From Flavobacterium aciduliphilum (GTDB lineage Bacteria > Bacteroidota > Bacteroidia > Flavobacteriales > Flavobacteriaceae): a stretch of DNA of 64,000 bases. A model generated the notes under the pieces. The model was not told where the DNA came from. It saw nothing but the letters and a program-made list of their open reading frames with translations, and made no database searches. The translations under genes were made by a program, and so were the position numbers. Below are positions 2,844-8,051 of the stretch, one piece after another (the first letter of the stretch is position 1; every line of letters starts with the position of its first letter). The DNA lies in assembly GCF_003268855.1 (NCBI RefSeq), contig NZ_QLSZ01000002.1:1-64000 (forward strand), written 5' to 3'.

Positions 2844-4622
2844 ATGAAAAAAATAAGTGCTAAAATCATACAAGCTTTAGTTGTAATACTTTTTTTTGGA
2901 GCCTTAAATGGCTGTAAAAATCAAGATGATTCTCAAAAATTTGATTTACTCACAAAGAAATATTTTTATGATAAAAATAGTTTAAATCCGTTAGATGCTA
3001 CTTTGAATGGACAAAATGAATTTAATGATCAACTCGTCTTTGAAATGACAGATTTCTATAGGAAAAAGCAATCTAATTTCTTCAGAACCTATAAAGCCGA
3101 ACTTTCTAAGATTGATTCTTCAAAATTAAATGAAGAGCAATTAAATAGTTTTGAAATTATGAAATGGGAAATTAAACAAGGTGAGAAAATCTTGAAAATC
3201 CCTACGAATGTAATGCCTATTCAGCAATTCTGGGGGACGCATTTAACCATGGCGCAATTTGCAAGTGGTTCGGCGGCTCAACCTTTCAAAACGGAAAAAG
3301 ATTATAAGAATTTTTTGAAAAGAATGGACTTGTATGCCGTTTGGATTGATTCAGCAATTGTATACATGAAAAAGGGAATCGAAAAGAAGCTGGTGCTTCC
3401 CAAAGCGTTAACTATAAAAGTAATTCCACAATTTGAAGAAATTTTAACGAAAAATCTTGAGGATAATCTTTTTTATTCAACGATTAAGACGATGCCTTCT
3501 ACTATTTCTAGGTCTAAAAAAGAAGAAATTACAAAGGCATATGCTAATATGATTCAGAATAAATTGATGCCTCAATATGTAAAAATGATATATTTTCTGA
3601 AAAATGAGTATTTGCCAGCTTCAAGAAGTACGAGCGGAATTGGTAGTCTGCCATTTGGAAAAGAAATGTATAAAGCTTACAGTGAGCAATGGACAACTAC
3701 AACAAAAACACCTGAAGAAATACATGAAATAGGCTTAAAAGAGGTAGCTCGTTTAAATGCTGAAATGGAAAAAGTAAAAAATCAAGTGGGTTTCAAAGGC
3801 ACATTAAAGGAGTTTTTAAATGATGTTAGATCTAAAAAAGAACTCATGCCTTTTTCAAAACCAGAAGAAGTTATTGCGCATTTTCAGAATATTTATAACA
3901 CCATTAAACCCAATGTTGACAAACTATTTTCTTTACAACCAAAAACTAAATTCGAAATAAGAAGAACAGAAGCATTTCGCGAAAAAACTGCAAGTGCAGA
4001 ATATGTTCAAGGTGCAGTGGATGGTTCGAGACCTGGAATTTTTTATGTTCCTATTCCTAATTCGAAAGAATATAATGTTTTAGAGGATGAAGATTTGTTT
4101 TTGCATGAAGCTATTCCAGGGCATCATTTTCAGATGTCTTTGCAACAAGAAAACACCAGTCTTCCCGATTTTAGAAGATACAATTGGTTTGGAGCTTATG
4201 GCGAAGGGTGGGCATTGTATACCGAAAGTTTAGGAAAAGAACTTGGATTATACAAAGACCCATATCAATATCTTGGCATGCTTAATGATGAAATGCACCG
4301 AGCCATTCGATTGGTTGTAGATACTGGAATCCATTCTAAAGGGTGGAGTAGAGAAAAAGCTATTCAATATTCATTAGAAAATGAGGCTGAAAGTGAGGCG
4401 AGTATCACCTCTGAAGTTGAACGCTACATGGCTATTCCGGGTCAAGCATTGTCCTATAAAATTGGACAACTAAAACTCATAGAACTTAGAGATAAAGCTT
4501 CGAAAACTCTAGGAGCTAAATTTGATATTAAGAAATTTCATGCCAAAGTGCTAGAATCTGGTGTGATGCCACTTGCCTTATTAGAAATTAAAATTAATAA
4601 GTGGATTCAATCTGAAAAATAA
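2844..4622 (+). CDS. DUF885 family lipoprotein, probable metallopeptidase
   Basis: This 592-aa protein has an N-terminal signal with a lipobox (ALNGC), so the mature form should start with a lipidated cysteine near residue 24. The DUF885 fold is recognised from the motif H421-E-A-I-P-G-H-H428, from the downstream GAYGEGWALYTESLG segment, and from the overall length of about 590 residues. In the family the HExxxGHH-like motif and a distal Glu probably bind a metal, so peptide hydrolysis outside the cytoplasm is the likely role; no substrate is known. The start is the ATG ten bases after the stop of the Nfu-like gene. The C-terminal 'SGVMPLALLEIKINKWI' is typical of complete members, so the protein appears intact. 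Confidence 0.85.
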   Translation: MKKISAKIIQALVVILFFGALNGCKNQDDSQKFDLLTKKYFYDKNSLNPLDATLNGQNEFNDQLVFEMTDFYRKKQSNFFRTYKAELSKIDSSKLNEEQLNSFEIMKWEIKQGEKILKIPTNVMPIQQFWGTHLTMAQFASGSAAQPFKTEKDYKNFLKRMDLYAVWIDSAIVYMKKGIEKKLVLPKALTIKVIPQFEEILTKNLEDNLFYSTIKTMPSTISRSKKEEITKAYANMIQNKLMPQYVKMIYFLKNEYLPASRSTSGIGSLPFGKEMYKAYSEQWTTTTKTPEEIHEIGLKEVARLNAEMEKVKNQVGFKGTLKEFLNDVRSKKELMPFSKPEEVIAHFQNIYNTIKPNVDKLFSLQPKTKFEIRRTEAFREKTASAEYVQGAVDGSRPGIFYVPIPNSKEYNVLEDEDLFLHEAIPGHHFQMSLQQENTSLPDFRRYNWFGAYGEGWALYTESLGKELGLYKDPYQYLGMLNDEMHRAIRLVVDTGIHSKGWSREKAIQYSLENEAESEASITSEVERYMAIPGQALSYKIGQLKLIELRDKASKTLGAKFDIKKFHAKVLESGVMPLALLEIKINKWIQSEK

Positions 4623-5127
4623 AATTTTTTTAAAAGGTTGAATTCTTTAATTCAATTTTTAGATTACTTCGAAAGAATAAATGTTTTAGTTAAAGATAAT
4701 AAATAAGTTGATGATATTTAGTTAAAAGCTATTTTTTAATCAAAAAGGATTCCCGAAGGCTCTGCCTCGTGTGTAAAAGAGGAAAGTTTGAAAACCTAAG
4801 GTTTTCATAAAACTAAAAATTTACTTTCTTCCGATTGATACCTTGTGGGCTCTGCCCCGAGGTAGTTCATTTTATATATTGAGAGTAAGGATATATTTTG
4901 TAAAAATATTTTGGTTTCTTTTCCAGAAATATCAATAGGTTTAAATTTTTTAGCATAAATTTATTGCTTAGGAGTATTAATGTTTTACTGTTACTTCTTT
5001 ATGTTAATGTGTCAAAATTAATTATATGTATCGGCTCTAAAAAATGTATATAATAAAGGGTTAATGTGTTAATATTTAGAGAAATGTTTTAGATTGTTTT
5101 GATTTTTTTGTAAAAATTTTAATTTTT
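4623..5127. other. AT-rich intergenic region with REP-like palindromes
   Basis: No plausible gene is seen here. At 4747-4867 there are two similar GC-richer blocks with the core GGCTCTGCC (about 4759 and 4848). A perfect 7-bp hairpin, GAAAACC-TAA-GGTTTTC (4790-4806), lies between them. The second block can fold as TACCT...GGGC-TCT-GCCC...AGGTA. This looks like an intergenic palindromic repeat pair rather than a terminator, since no T-run follows. The remainder is plain AT-rich sequence. Confidence 0.5.
4747..4867. repeat. REP-like intergenic palindrome cluster
   Basis: Two related units with GGCTCTGCC and GGGCTCTGCCCC cores flank a perfect GAAAACC/GGTTTTC hairpin. The composition is clearly more GC-rich than the flanks. 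A RAYT transposase at 50.6 kb would be a possible source, but the units there are different in sequence. Confidence 0.45.
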
Positions 5128-5159: not shown

Positions 5160-5225
5160 CCTAATTATTGCAATGATTACGTTCATACGTTGTTAAAAAT
5201 ACAAAAGCATTAAGTCTTTTATTCT

Positions 5226-5335
5226 TGTTAAGGAAAACTGGTAATTTTCATAAATAGAACAGGAATAGGCTAATGCCCACGCACGGCGTGGGCTTGGTTT
5301 ATTTGTTCTATGGGTATACCAGTGCCTCCTTAACA
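5226..5335 (+). ncRNA. Nested hairpin, possible structured leader RNA
   Basis: Four nested stems are seen directly. The outer stem is TGTTAAGGA (5226-5234) with TCCTTAACA (5327-5335). Next is CTGGTA (5238-5243) with TACCAG (5317-5322), then ATAGAACA with TGTTCTAT, and finally GCCCACGC (5275-5282) with GCGTGGGC (5286-5293) around an ACG loop. The element sits between the probable promoter and the start of the lipoprotein gene. It could be a cis-acting RNA, a conserved leader specific to this lipoprotein family, or a DNA palindrome. I do not recognise it as a named RNA family. Confidence 0.55.
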
Positions 5336-5398
5336 GTAAATTGAGTACCACGCTTTTTTATTTTTCAATGTTTTATTAATTTTTAAACATTTGAAAAC

Positions 5399-6973
5399 AT
5401 GAAGACATTATTATTGAAATTAACTAAAGTTTCTCTGTTATTATTTTTTCTAATTCTCACTAGTTGTGAAAAAGATTTGTATGATGACACTCTAAAAAAG
5501 GAAAGTAAGATTAAAGTTGAGAATTTTTCATTAAAGAATTTAAAGGAAAATAACATTAACAATCAACGGTTGTTCGAAGCAGTAAAAAAAGTAAAAAAAG
5601 CTTCAAAGAAAAATATAGCTGGAAAAATCGTTTATGATAGTGAAAAAGGTATTTATTTTGATGATGAAAAAGGTGTTAAGGTATCAAAAGAAGATTATGA
5701 ATCTTACACTTTTAAAATATTAAACTCTGAAAGTGAAAAAATTGAAAATTTACTTTTTACCAAAAACTATCTACAGCAGTATGATATATATAAAGTTAAA
5801 TACGATTTTACGGAGGAAGAGTTAAAAACATTAAGTCCAGAAGAATTAAAACAAAGACAAATAGAATATTATAACATTACAAACGAGAAAATGGAAGTGC
5901 CTGAATTGTTGTGTGTTGAATTTCAAGAGCTTGTTGATAATGGGGAATTACATGGAGCAGATTCTCCCGCACAATATGAATGGGTTACAAATGCCTCATA
6001 TTGTTTTTGGACTGGAGGAATCGGTGGCGGCGGTTCAGATGCAGGAGCTAGCGGAGGAGTTTCAGGATCTGGTGGTTCTTCAGGAGGTGAAGGTGGTGGT
6101 GGAAATGGTTCGGGAGGAGGTATTAGTGCAGCATCAAACCCTACTGGAATACATATAATTACATTGCCAGTTCATGGCAATGGAATTGCCCAAATTCAAC
6201 AAAGTTTTCAAGAACTTATTAATTCAATAAAATTTACACTAACAGTTGCGCAAACTAATTTTTTGCAAATACCTGTTCAACATAATTTAGTAATTGCTTT
6301 AACAGCTTTGGCTCAAAGCAATAATAACGATGAAATTATTAATTGGCTTATAAATCAGGCGATGAGTCAAGGTAGTAATAATGTTATTCCAATTGTTAAT
6401 TATCTTAATAGCAATCCAGAATCTTATGATTCAATTAGTGAGTTTTTAACTCAAAATAATTATTCTCAGGAAAGTATTAATCTTGTAAATCAAATGATAA
6501 ATTTATCTATATCAAATGGTTCTACTTTTACATTAGATAGTTCAATTAATAGTAATAATGCTCAAGTTTTCAATAATGTTCAAGAGTTTCAGAATTCAAT
6601 AATTAAAACTGGTAATGGATTTGATATACAATCAGCAACTCTATTAAATGAAGTGTTATCATCAGTAAAGTTTCAAATTAACAATGTAGGAACCAACCTT
6701 CAGATTGATATTAAACAAAAACTGACACCAACATACAGAGTATCAAATTTAACTACTCAACTAGTTGGAATAGCATCTTTTCTCAACAGTACATTAACAA
6801 ATTATACTGTAAATAATAGTCCTATGGGAACAATTAAAATTGATGTTTATGATACTGTATCAATGAATATAACTGTTTATGGTTATGGTATAGTTGTAAA
6901 TCAGCCTTACCATATTACAGTTATAATCGACAGTTCCAATGGTCAAATTATTTCATCATTTATTAATCCTTAA
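5399..6973 (+). CDS. Glycine-linker lipoprotein with variable C-terminal tail (unknown function)
   Basis: This 524-aa protein has a lipoprotein signal (lipobox LTSC, Cys23) and should be anchored in the outer or inner membrane facing outwards. Residues of about 25-200 form a charged, helical N-terminal region. A glycine/serine linker of about 40 residues follows at roughly 203-243, and then a long Asn/Gln/Ser-rich C-terminal part without cysteines. The N-terminal half resembles a family of Flavobacterium lipoproteins whose C-terminal parts differ between copies; that is recollection, not a search. Residues 433-524 have a frameshifted homologue downstream at 7631-7925. A small membrane-peptide gene starts 3 bp after the stop. 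No enzyme motif was found. A polymorphic-toxin, adhesin or surface-antigen role is possible, none proven. Confidence 0.75.
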   Translation: MKTLLLKLTKVSLLLFFLILTSCEKDLYDDTLKKESKIKVENFSLKNLKENNINNQRLFEAVKKVKKASKKNIAGKIVYDSEKGIYFDDEKGVKVSKEDYESYTFKILNSESEKIENLLFTKNYLQQYDIYKVKYDFTEEELKTLSPEELKQRQIEYYNITNEKMEVPELLCVEFQELVDNGELHGADSPAQYEWVTNASYCFWTGGIGGGGSDAGASGGVSGSGGSSGGEGGGGNGSGGGISAASNPTGIHIITLPVHGNGIAQIQQSFQELINSIKFTLTVAQTNFLQIPVQHNLVIALTALAQSNNNDEIINWLINQAMSQGSNNVIPIVNYLNSNPESYDSISEFLTQNNYSQESINLVNQMINLSISNGSTFTLDSSINSNNAQVFNNVQEFQNSIIKTGNGFDIQSATLLNEVLSSVKFQINNVGTNLQIDIKQKLTPTYRVSNLTTQLVGIASFLNSTLTNYTVNNSPMGTIKIDVYDTVSMNITVYGYGIVVNQPYHITVIIDSSNGQIISSFINP

Positions 6974-6976
6974 AAA

Positions 6977-7129
6977 ATGAGACGTCAAATTTTTCAAGGT
7001 GAGCCAATTCATAATACATTTTATTATTTATCTGGCATTTTACAGATACTAGGTATTGTACTTATAATACTTGTTGTTTGTTACGCTACAAGCAAAATTT
7101 ATAAATTCTTTAATCAAATACGTAAATAA
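6977..7129 (+). CDS. Small single-span membrane protein (unit 1)
   Basis: A 50-aa reading frame starts 3 bp after the lipoprotein stop codon, so it is almost certainly cotranslated with it. It has a polar N-terminus of about 20 residues, one hydrophobic segment (ILGIVLIILVVCYA, about 24-37) and a basic tail (SKIYKFFNQIRK). The same layout, hydrophobic span then Y/F-K-K-rich end, occurs in the small frames at 7479 and 7914. It could be an immunity-type, anchoring or signalling peptide of the lipoprotein; no family is recognised. Confidence 0.55.
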   Translation: MRRQIFQGEPIHNTFYYLSGILQILGIVLIILVVCYATSKIYKFFNQIRK

Positions 7130-7295
7130 TTAAATAAAAAATCTTATAAAAAACCAGAAATTTATTACATAGAGCCAGTAATCATATTGATTATATCATC
7201 GGTTCAATTAGATAAATTTTAATATTGATTATATTTGTGTTTTATTAGCTTTTTATTTATACAATCAAACTAAAAAAATGTTAAATTTCTGCTAA
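7130..7295. other. Short spacer with repeated AT-rich 13-mer
   Basis: Nothing coding is evident. The 13-mer ATATTGATTATAT occurs at 7184-7196 and 7222-7234, and also at 5144-5156 upstream of the lipoprotein. The copy at 7222 runs into TATATTTG (7230-7237), a good -7 promoter box, so this spacer may carry a promoter for unit 2 or be a relic of the upstream region of a full gene. Confidence 0.35.
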
Positions 7296-7460
7296 ACAAC
7301 TTCATTGGATGGTCTTGGTACTTACTTCAAAAAGTGGAGTGAATCTCAATGTTTCGCAGATAATGGTTTACCTTTCCATTACCATGAGCAGTGGGTATAT
7401 ACATTAGTTTTTAACAATCAGACAGGTGAATGTATTAATATATATGGAGTAAAGAAATAA
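7296..7460 (+). pseudogene. Orphan C-terminal tail fragment (unit 2)
   Basis: A 54-codon open stretch without a start codon follows a TAA and ends in TAA at 7458-7460. It reads TTSLDGLGTYFKKWSESQ and ends YTLVFNNQTGECINIYGVKK. The ending shares a loose pattern with the lipoprotein tails of the other two units (Y-H-x-x-x-(5-6)-(I/V)-x-x-x-x-(T/N)-G-x-x-I/C), but the rest is different. I read it as the 3' remnant of a lipoprotein gene with a different tail; it is followed by its own small membrane-peptide gene. It could also be a silent cassette. Confidence 0.5.
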
Positions 7461-7478
7461 AATAAAATATCAAGATAT

Positions 7479-7592
7479 ATGGAAATTCAACAATTTAGTT
7501 CTGGGTTAATGATTTTACAAGTATTAATGTTTGTTTTAATACTTATAGTTATTTATTTTTTGGTAAAAATTTACAAAAAGCTTAAAAAATAG
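7479..7592 (+). CDS. Small single-span membrane protein (unit 2)
   Basis: This 37-aa frame starts 18 bp after the orphan tail stop. Nearly the whole peptide is one hydrophobic span (LMILQVLMFVLILIVIYFLV), with a short polar N-terminus (MEIQQFSSG) and a basic end (KIYKKLKK). The layout matches the peptides at 6977 and 7914, and an intrinsic terminator follows directly. Whether it is translated is unknown, since the upstream tail is a fragment. Confidence 0.5.
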   Translation: MEIQQFSSGLMILQVLMFVLILIVIYFLVKIYKKLKK

Positions 7593-7597
7593 TTGAT

Positions 7598-7628
7598 AAA
7601 TCTCCTTATACTTTTGGGGAGGTTTTTT
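7598..7628 (+). terminator. Intrinsic terminator after unit 2
   Basis: The stem AAATCTCC (7598-7605) pairs with GGAGGTTT (7618-7625, one G-T pair) and runs into a T tract. It closes unit 2, just ahead of the unit 3 fragment. Confidence 0.6.
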
Positions 7629-7630
7629 AA

Positions 7631-7925
7631 TGTGTAAAAATAAATGTTAAACAAACGATGACTCTAAGTTATCATGTTGATAATGTAAAAATGAGTTATT
7701 TGGATTAACTGTATTTGTAGATTGGAATCAATCAGATTATTCTGTAAATAATAATGAAAAAAGTGATATTGTTGTTATAGATATTTTGGTGTTAGTTCTG
7801 TAAAAATATTTATGCAAGGAATTGGTACAATTTATCATGAAAATCAGCATTTTCAGATTAAGATTGATAAAACAACAGGAGATATAATTTCAGCAATTGT
7901 AATCATTAAAAATATGGAAAAAATA
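7631..7925 (+). pseudogene. Frameshifted copy of the lipoprotein C-terminal tail (unit 3)
   Basis: Read in three successive frames, this stretch matches residues 433-524 of the lipoprotein at 5399. It begins KINVKQTMTLSYHVDNV (lipoprotein: QIDIKQKLTPTYRVSNL), shifts frame near 7690 to NELFGLTVFVDW...DYSVNN (QLVGIASFLN...NYTVNN), and shifts again near 7780 to VSSVKIFMQGIGTIYHENQ (TVSMNITVYGYGIVVNQ). It ends KIDKTTGDIISA (IIDSSNGQIISS). Two frameshifts and the absence of any 5' part make it a pseudogene. The last part is open in the same frame as the following membrane peptide, so the stop between the two has been lost. Confidence 0.7.
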
Positions 7926-8051
7926 TTCAAAGATATGAGTGTGGGTTTGTTTGTTGGACAAATGGTTGCTTTAATAATTTTAACATTAATCATATATTTT
8001 GTTTTCAGATTTTATAAAAAAATTATAAATTATTTTTCTAAAAAATCTTAA
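7914..8051 (+). CDS. Small single-span membrane protein (unit 3)
   Basis: A 45-aa peptide is read from the ATG at 7914 (MEKIFKDMSVGLFVGQM), with one hydrophobic span (VALIILTLIIYFVF) and a basic end (RFYKKIINYFSKKS). The reading frame is open upstream to 7812 because the tail fragment in front has lost its stop, so a 79-aa fusion is formally possible. I prefer the 7914 start because it aligns with the start positions in units 1 and 2, right after the tail. Confidence 0.5.
   Translation: MEKIFKDMSVGLFVGQMVALIILTLIIYFVFRFYKKIINYFSKKS

Follow-up and report, generated by a model that had tools for sequence, protein, structure and literature searches.

A predicted lipoprotein polymorphic toxin locus with a string of single-span immunity-like peptides in Flavobacterium aciduliphilum

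The SitA toxins of Myxococcus consist of a lipobox, a conserved N-terminal module and a swappable C-terminal tip, and the gene of the cognate immunity protein SitI is located downstream of the toxin gene (PMC5562445, PMC8546572). The SitA tips are described as nucleases acting in the cytoplasm and include AHH nucleases, and the system uses TraA-dependent outer membrane exchange (PMC5562445, PMC8546572). Another group of polymorphic toxins combines a lipobox with an N-terminal cystatin-like domain, BamE-like immunity proteins and tips that include Min-Wnt, CapCone, colicin M-like and other domains (PMC12419801, the main text of which does not contain the string 'flavobacteri'). The TANFOR toxins are large Bacteroidetes proteins with a proposed use of the type IX secretion system (T9SS), C-terminal toxins including AHH, and downstream immunity genes (PMC7073777, the main text of which does not contain the word 'lipoprotein'). 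The lipobox effectors APD1 and APD2 of Amoebophilus are predicted to be host-directed, and the same source presents JAB toxins with exported immunity proteins, such as Imm65/Tox-JAB-1, in which Tox-JAB-1 is described with RHS repeats (PMC3482391). The polymorphic toxins TspA/TsaI and EsaD/EsaG of the type VII secretion system (T7SS) are accompanied by strings of non-identical immunity genes, and TspA depolarises membranes (PMC9484751). Here we analyse a locus from Flavobacterium aciduliphilum, located in a 64,000-nucleotide stretch of DNA (the window) on contig 2 of the 2.74-Mb draft genome, in which a lipoprotein gene is followed by an array of tail remnants and short membrane peptides.

All elements of the locus are on the forward strand. 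The lipoprotein gene (5399–6973) encodes 524 residues with a lipobox ending in LILTSC and a glycine-rich linker near residues 205–245, and both its N-terminal half and its tail have homologues. The carrier module (residues 1–250, 5399–6148) comprises the signal peptide, the lipobox, the conserved N-half and the linker. A helical pre-tail segment (residues 331–399, 6389–6595), represented by A2 matches limited to about model positions 3–75, also precedes other C-terminal modules, and it is followed by the tail (residues 400–524, 6596–6970), a member of the A3 family of 27. The gene of peptide 1 (6977–7129, 50 residues), the predicted cognate immunity peptide, starts within 3 bp behind the lipoprotein gene. 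Two further units follow: a tail fragment (7296–7460) with peptide 2 (7479–7592, 37 residues), and a decayed tail (7631–7913) with peptide 3 (7914–8051, 45 residues). The open reading frames (ORFs) are as described in a first-pass annotation, which had reported a lipoprotein at 5399 and three tail–peptide units, one intact, one fragmentary and one frameshifted, with peptides at 6977, 7479 and 7914. The layout that it gave for 5226–8051 holds, and the start needs correction, as position 5226 falls within a separate hairpin element (5215–5345). By its anatomy, as read from the sequence, the locus is a polymorphic toxin system. We assign a probability of roughly 0.8 to the reading that it encodes a lipoprotein polymorphic toxin with an all-β tip and a poly-immunity array of single-span peptides, and consider it highly probable that tail and peptide form a toxin–immunity pair.

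The lipoprotein is modular. Comparisons were made across species, with one genome per species. A search with the whole protein found matches in 59 of 398 genus genomes; most covered residues 1–250, and the proteins concerned had a different or a more distant C-terminus; a smaller set covered residues 331–522 in proteins with an N-half too distant for reporting. A profile of eight tails matched in 41 of the 398 genus genomes and in 11 of 395 genomes sampled across the order; the tail places in G349, G013, G386, G336, G182 and G035 (genus) and in G182, G495:C12 and G690 (order), all with E values of at least 2.3e-4, were left unfetched. In the 61 stretches examined (the window, L033–L052 and L093–L132), 43 ORFs matched the tail profile, and 27 of them extended to the end of the tail. 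In 15 of the 16 partial matches the helical pre-tail is followed by a different C-terminus; the sixteenth, L105, is a case of its own. With an iterated profile of the N-half, 18 of the 25 full-length tail proteins gave a match along most of the profile and two a weak match; the other five had none. By eye, L098, L100, L102, L103 and L110 have a second type of lipoprotein carrier, which starts with an 'AKKWF'-like sequence and is likewise joined to the tail and peptide, and L112 is a third lipoprotein carrier.

Classified by pattern alone, the C-termini of 54 N-half proteins comprise 19 tails, ten JAMM-like motifs, ten HExxH motifs, six AHH motifs and nine others; duplicates (L133, L134, L135, L137, L139, L140) and ORFs that were shorter than 300 residues or had little N-half were left out of this count. 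A conserved N-terminal module is thus joined to at least four classes of unrelated tips, as in polymorphic toxins, and the type of the downstream partner follows the C-terminus. All six AHH-motif proteins have a partner of 228–245 residues with a similar start. The Pfam family AHH (PF14412) was above the cut-off in four of five motif carriers scanned (L046, L122, L126, L130) and below it in L047, and Imm11 (PF07791) was above the cut-off in two of three AHH partners scanned (L046, L126) and below it in L047. All ten JAMM-like proteins (L038–L045, L048, L128) have an exported partner of 182–208 residues; the partner scanned (L041) belongs to DUF6705, as do those in the similar-looking loci L002 and L003, and DUF6705-type proteins may be the immunity partners of JAMM-like tips. 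In the HExxH class, a partner ORF is within reach in nine of ten cases. By eye, signal peptides are absent from AHH partners and present in JAMM and HExxH partners, and the tail partners are single-span peptides. If the partners are immunity proteins, their locations imply that AHH tips act in the cytoplasm, JAMM and HExxH tips in the periplasm, and the tail at the inner membrane. The pre-tail helical segment is proposed as the junction at which C-termini are exchanged. The first-pass annotation had asked whether the N-half stays constant under a changing tail–peptide pair; across species, it remains recognisable while the tail–partner pair changes.

The tail and the peptide are linked. We defined a linked peptide as an ATG-started ORF of 30–80 residues with a membrane span, located within 100 bp behind the tail ORF. 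Such an ORF is present behind 26 of the 27 tail ORFs from Flavobacteriales genomes, the window included, and in the 27th (L094) it overlaps the tail gene. The tail homologues are thus found on full-length genes elsewhere with a small membrane peptide next to them. Only three of 203 other ORFs of at least 200 residues in the same stretches are followed by such a peptide (Fisher p 7e-30), and none of the 16 ORFs with a partial match to the tail model is (Fisher p 6e-11). The tail and peptide distances are correlated (Mantel r 0.65, n=27, p 5e-5), and with the N-half held constant this correlation is 0.69. The N-half and peptide distances are not correlated (r 0.10, n=24, p 0.07). Since the loci share ancestry to an unknown extent, the linkage and Mantel p-values serve as guides. 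The evidence for a tip-specific downstream immunity gene consists of this linkage and co-variation and of the pairing of AHH with Imm11. Together with the changing tail–partner pairs, the linkage supports the earlier proposal of a polymorphic system with toxin–immunity-like pairing of tail and peptide.

The peptides outnumber the tails. In 34 non-redundant stretches, from which the duplicate loci L033, L035, L036, L037, L116 and L119 were left out, we found 53 peptides and 28 tails (the 27 of the linkage count and that of L136). Nine peptides in seven stretches have no detected tail; they are extra genes in loci with other toxin C-termini (e.g. L135, L139, L141) or have no toxin nearby, as the lone peptide of F. 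yafengii (L138). L136 has four peptides behind one toxin, and one that is not adjacent to the tail (3192–3377) resembles peptide 1 of the window. L094 has three peptides by model and a fourth by eye. A scan of genome contigs with the peptide alignment confirmed nine of 213 pattern matches, a small sample. Orphan tip–immunity cassettes and strings of immunity-like peptides were therefore found in the window (units 2 and 3), L033/L140, L136 and L094.

The surplus of peptides helps to decide whether the peptide could instead be an accessory of the tail, such as a membrane anchor or a partner in export or assembly, within a diversifying surface system without toxicity. A physical partnership would also give rise to linkage and co-variation, and the absence of demonstrated toxicity and of a recognised toxin fold is compatible with it. 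However, an accessory is not expected to persist without its tail, as the peptides do in the tail-less stretches and in the strings of L136 and L094, and the same carrier bears an AHH nuclease with an Imm11-family partner. We consider the accessory role unlikely. The last two observations also distinguish between the arrangements named in the first-pass annotation, silent cassettes or toxin–immunity: a toxin–immunity array is the better fit, and silent cassettes for surface variation are the poorer one.

It is very unlikely that the peptides are themselves the toxic component, controlled by the lipoprotein or the leader. The size of short single-span peptides with a basic end resembles that of type I toxins, but rows of several intact peptides are retained, with or without tails, and it is difficult to see what would select for uncontrolled toxins. 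Furthermore, the downstream gene in the AHH class belongs to an immunity family (Imm11).

The tail model used to score the orphan tails excluded the window's own sequence, and the best of 200 first-order Markov shuffles reached 6.0 bits against it. The tail fragment of unit 2, the C-terminal end of another tail, scored 15.9 bits at model positions 133–161 (7296–7457). Unit 3 gave three pieces in three frames: 7631–7705 (model 72–92, 8.2 bits, weak by itself), 7684–7800 (model 93–117, 17.5 bits) and 7767–8048 (model 124–162, 31.2 bits). The pieces are collinear and therefore indicate two frameshifts; they cover residues of about 430–524, which agrees with the earlier description of the third tail as residues 433–524 read through two frameshifts. 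In addition to its own ATG at 7914, peptide 3 has an in-frame reading that begins within the tail remnant (ORF 7812–8051). With a peptide model that contained only the unit-3 peptide of the three, the peptides of units 1 and 2 scored 22.5 and 26.0 bits, the best shuffle reaching 11.6; peptide 2 matched type B with an E value of 5e-10. That the orphan tails were copied from the neighbouring lipoprotein, as the first-pass annotation had implied, is not borne out. The search of the downstream DNA with the lipoprotein's own tail by tblastn yielded nothing convincing (best E 0.16, on the wrong strand), and the two share only two short stretches at a constant spacing of 935–936 and a 21-bp blastn match (E 7e-4). 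The orphan tails are, judging from these scores, divergent members of the tail family rather than recent copies of their neighbour's tail. A simple decaying tandem duplication of the lipoprotein gene with incidental small ORFs, which the decay of two of the three window tails might suggest, is rejected as highly improbable, since the orphan tails are no recent copies, the tail–peptide pair recurs across genomes in 26 of 27 loci, tails stand on full-length genes elsewhere, at an E value of 1e-4 the peptide models hit nothing among 755 small control ORFs, and the pattern of decayed paralogues without linked peptides was looked for and not found.

Locus L033 of F. luminosum, which covers the region of L140, contains a full gene and an orphan tail–peptide cassette that are identical at 106 of 108 bp (98%) just before their tails diverge. 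To judge from its sequence, this seam is that expected of cassette exchange of the recombination type, and only in this species is there support for orphan tails as donors. The window lacks the seam and its orphan tails are decayed, which suggests that they are relics next to retained peptides and not donors fit for use. Intact peptides stand beside broken tails both in the window and in L033, which fits retention of immunity.

The AlphaFold2 prediction of the L136 tail is a nine-strand all-β structure with a predicted local distance difference test (pLDDT) value of 90 and a predicted template modelling score of 0.83, and that of the window tail with its helical pre-tail is all-β with seven strands (pLDDT 78). 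Matches to Pfam at E 0.01 were absent from all 27 tails, NCBIfam gave no name for three tail proteins scanned, and the best E value of a Protein Data Bank sequence search with the tail was 0.21. The best VIA-align match was the Fusarium defoliating toxin 9fei (Z 7.3 and 6.5 for the two tail models), followed by Listeria lmo2686 (4k15, 6.2 and 6.5) and a Bacteroides protein (3kny, 5.2 and 5.7); among the matches listed for the second model only were staphylococcal leukocidins (Z about 5). Such middling Z scores may reflect a common arrangement, and we therefore describe the tail as predicted all-β and assign it to no fold. Three proteins of about 172–175 residues (L105:2640-3158, L133:8415-8933, G349:C1:1383649-1383921) weakly match the β tail model; the N-terminal part is hydrophobic in those of L105 and L133, and the three are possibly membrane-bound relatives of the toxin tip.

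The tail columns conserved in more than 75% of the 27 tails are G, W, Q, G and G (W-x-Q and three glycines), and no charged residue, histidine, cysteine or serine reaches this level. In all 29 peptides considered (27 cognate and the two window orphans), the more positive flank of the span is on the C-terminal side, with a mean net charge of +4.1 versus −1.4 for the N-terminal flank, which predicts that the N-terminus of the peptide is periplasmic. From this conservation pattern and the peptide topology we infer a non-enzymatic tip that acts, and is blocked, at the inner membrane. The inner membrane is the site of action that we moderately favour; that the tail forms a pore is a more tentative idea, which we would rather doubt than accept.

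Several observations weigh against the interpretation of the locus as a lipoprotein polymorphic toxin with its immunity array. No computation shows toxicity or neutralisation, Foldseek found no match with E <0.001 for either tail model, and the modelled tail is without a recognised toxin fold. The window tail deviates at two conserved places, with S for W (conserved in 21 of 27 tails) and D for G (25 of 27), so that its own activity could be altered. The nearest neighbour by tail is also the nearest by peptide in only eight of 27 pairs; the co-variation is therefore broad and not one-to-one, as expected of short divergent peptides. The tail and N-half distances are weakly correlated (r 0.34, p 0.0016), which indicates that exchange is not free. 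The seam repeat was absent from eight further loci, and the window contains only the 21-bp match. The loci were chosen by similarity to the query, so that the counts apply to this sample, in which related loci are non-independent.

Based on the modular carrier and the linked peptides, a mechanism can be proposed. The N-half, with its signal peptide, lipobox and glycine-rich linker, would serve as the module for export and display, and the pre-tail helical segment as the exchange junction for C-termini. The all-β tail would be the toxin tip and the peptide encoded directly behind it the cognate immunity protein, with a predicted location in the inner membrane, a periplasmic N-terminus and a basic cytoplasmic C-terminus. 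The peptide would block the tail either within the membrane or at its periplasmic face. Given this placement, the tail is most likely not an enzyme and attacks the inner membrane, by forming a pore or by acting on a membrane protein. Units 2 and 3 would be remnants of other toxin–immunity modules whose tails have decayed and whose peptides remain intact, and the kept peptides would protect the cell against tails carried by relatives. It is an even bet that the locus belongs to an undescribed Flavobacteriales weapon class, in which surface lipoproteins with an exchangeable non-enzymatic all-β tip would kill at the inner membrane, countered by a co-evolving single-helix immunity peptide of 37–66 residues in poly-immunity strings; for part of the class, expression would take place behind a new structured RNA leader, which is present also before genes of TonB-receptor-like and secreted proteins.

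The putative toxin may be delivered as a surface lipoprotein. The lipobox pattern is present in 22 of the 27 tail ORFs, and two of the five without it are orphan cassettes; combined with the C-terminal classes, it gives a lipoprotein with a swappable, putatively toxic C-terminus, as in SitA. The six positions after the lipobox cysteine contain on average 2.5 acidic residues (21 proteins), which we take to be reminiscent of the surface-export signals of Bacteroidota lipoproteins. The sheath protein VipB (PF05943) of the type VI secretion system was detected in none of 25 tail-bearing genomes and, among 14 controls, only in E. coli; delivery by this system therefore looks unlikely, with the limit that a divergent Bacteroidota sheath could escape the search. 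The T9SS is widespread in this bacterial group. SprA_N, a T9SS component, was found in all 25 tail-bearing genomes, which proves nothing for delivery, and the window protein had no Pfam or NCBIfam match to a T9SS sorting domain above the cut-off in scans that were not aimed at such domains.

The locus is preceded by a strongly covarying leader hairpin of about 115 nt. The window sequence 5215–5345 folds into a long hairpin (z −7.3; models R1 and R2) about 50 nt upstream of the lipoprotein start and has no match in Rfam. In 63 stretches, eight hairpin matches had E <1e-7, seven of which are included in the model and one of which (L116) is outside it; all are directly upstream of a toxin start on the same strand, mostly at about 50 nt and at most at about 160 nt. 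The remaining 55 stretches have none at this threshold, so that most toxin loci lack the hairpin. Thirteen further loci contained one more copy, L026 (E 2.6e-6), about 190 nt upstream of an N-half gene. The copies are located upstream of family toxin genes at L114:1501-1634, L136:1434-1567 and L116:1634-1772, and on the minus strand at L119:4741-4876, L036:5508-5643, L046:4514-4651, L095:5327-5464 and L026:2482-2619. Two-sided changes were present in 20 of 39 pairs in an ordinary alignment of six copies and in 33 of 39 pairs in an alignment of 33 distinct copies fitted to the structure; for the latter alignment, none of 500 shuffles reached any of five measures. The hairpin occurs in 104 of 199 genus genomes and in none of 26 control stretches. 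The pond metagenome-assembled genome G091 has at least four places with the N-half or pre-tail (L114, L116, L036, L026), with a hairpin upstream of all four; the three read whole have, by eye, differing C-termini.

The genome of the window has four copies of the hairpin, each about 50–70 nt before a start codon. By eye, the other three (L201, L202, L203) are 60–67 nt before the genes of a LamG-like secreted protein, a T9SS-cargo-like protein and a methyltransferase-like ORF, respectively. Many of about 30 other copies inspected by eye lie between the genes of a helix-turn-helix regulator and a SusC-like receptor. A widespread covarying leader hairpin without an Rfam match is thus a by-product of the analysis.

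A terminator-like hairpin that closes unit 2 (7598–7625) was called by a consensus scan only. Repeated GGCTCTGCC(C/T)CG-like words are visible by eye at 4760–4870, between the upstream gene and the leader, and one of them was called terminator-like. No name above the cut-off was obtained for the window proteins from Pfam or NCBIfam, PADLOC gave no match among six proteins, and weak matches to BioW, MscL, CoxB, NEMP and TraL, all below the cut-offs, were dismissed. The flanks of the neighbouring flavoprotein gene in six relatives provided no clean empty site. The DUF885-like gene upstream in the window adjoins the flavoprotein gene in none of the six and is several kilobases away in one.

If the lipoprotein locus is a polymorphic toxin system, unnamed Flavobacterium lipoproteins gain a testable role as interbacterial toxins, and the proposed toxin domain is one that bears no Pfam name in 27 members and no NCBIfam name in the three scanned. 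The immunity proteins would be very short, and only a periplasmic stub and a single helix could then carry their specificity, so that toxin–immunity recognition at a membrane becomes directly testable with short peptides.

Searches limited to open-licence PubMed Central papers yielded no account of the present carrier, tail or peptide. The APD1/APD2 effectors and Tox-JAB-1 resemble the present system in Bacteroidetes lipobox N-terminal domains with polymorphic C-termini and in JAB toxins with exported immunity, and differ from it in the RHS repeats of Tox-JAB-1 and the predicted host-directed action of the APD effectors; the cited portion of that source describes no tail or peptide of the present type (PMC3482391). 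TspA/TsaI and EsaD/EsaG share with it polymorphic toxins and strings of non-identical immunity genes, but belong to Firmicutes and the T7SS, and are compared here by description only (PMC9484751). The TANFOR toxins are from the same phylum, with C-terminal toxins including AHH and immunity genes downstream (PMC7073777); the TANFOR domain (TIGR02542) had no match in the NCBIfam scan at E 0.1, the presence of the model in the library copy being unchecked. The nearest described designs that we found, likened by anatomy and description, are the toxins with a lipobox and a cystatin-like domain and the SitA toxins of Myxococcus. The former share with the present system a lipobox, a common N-terminal domain, several tips and membrane or periplasmic immunity, whereas their tips are others and their immunity proteins BamE-like, and the N-halves were set side by side by description only (PMC12419801). 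SitA shares the lipobox, the conserved N-terminal module, the swappable tip, the downstream immunity gene and the occurrence of AHH tips; it belongs to myxobacteria and TraA exchange, whereas the present system is from Flavobacteriales, has an N-half without a named family and pairs its tail with a single-span peptide.

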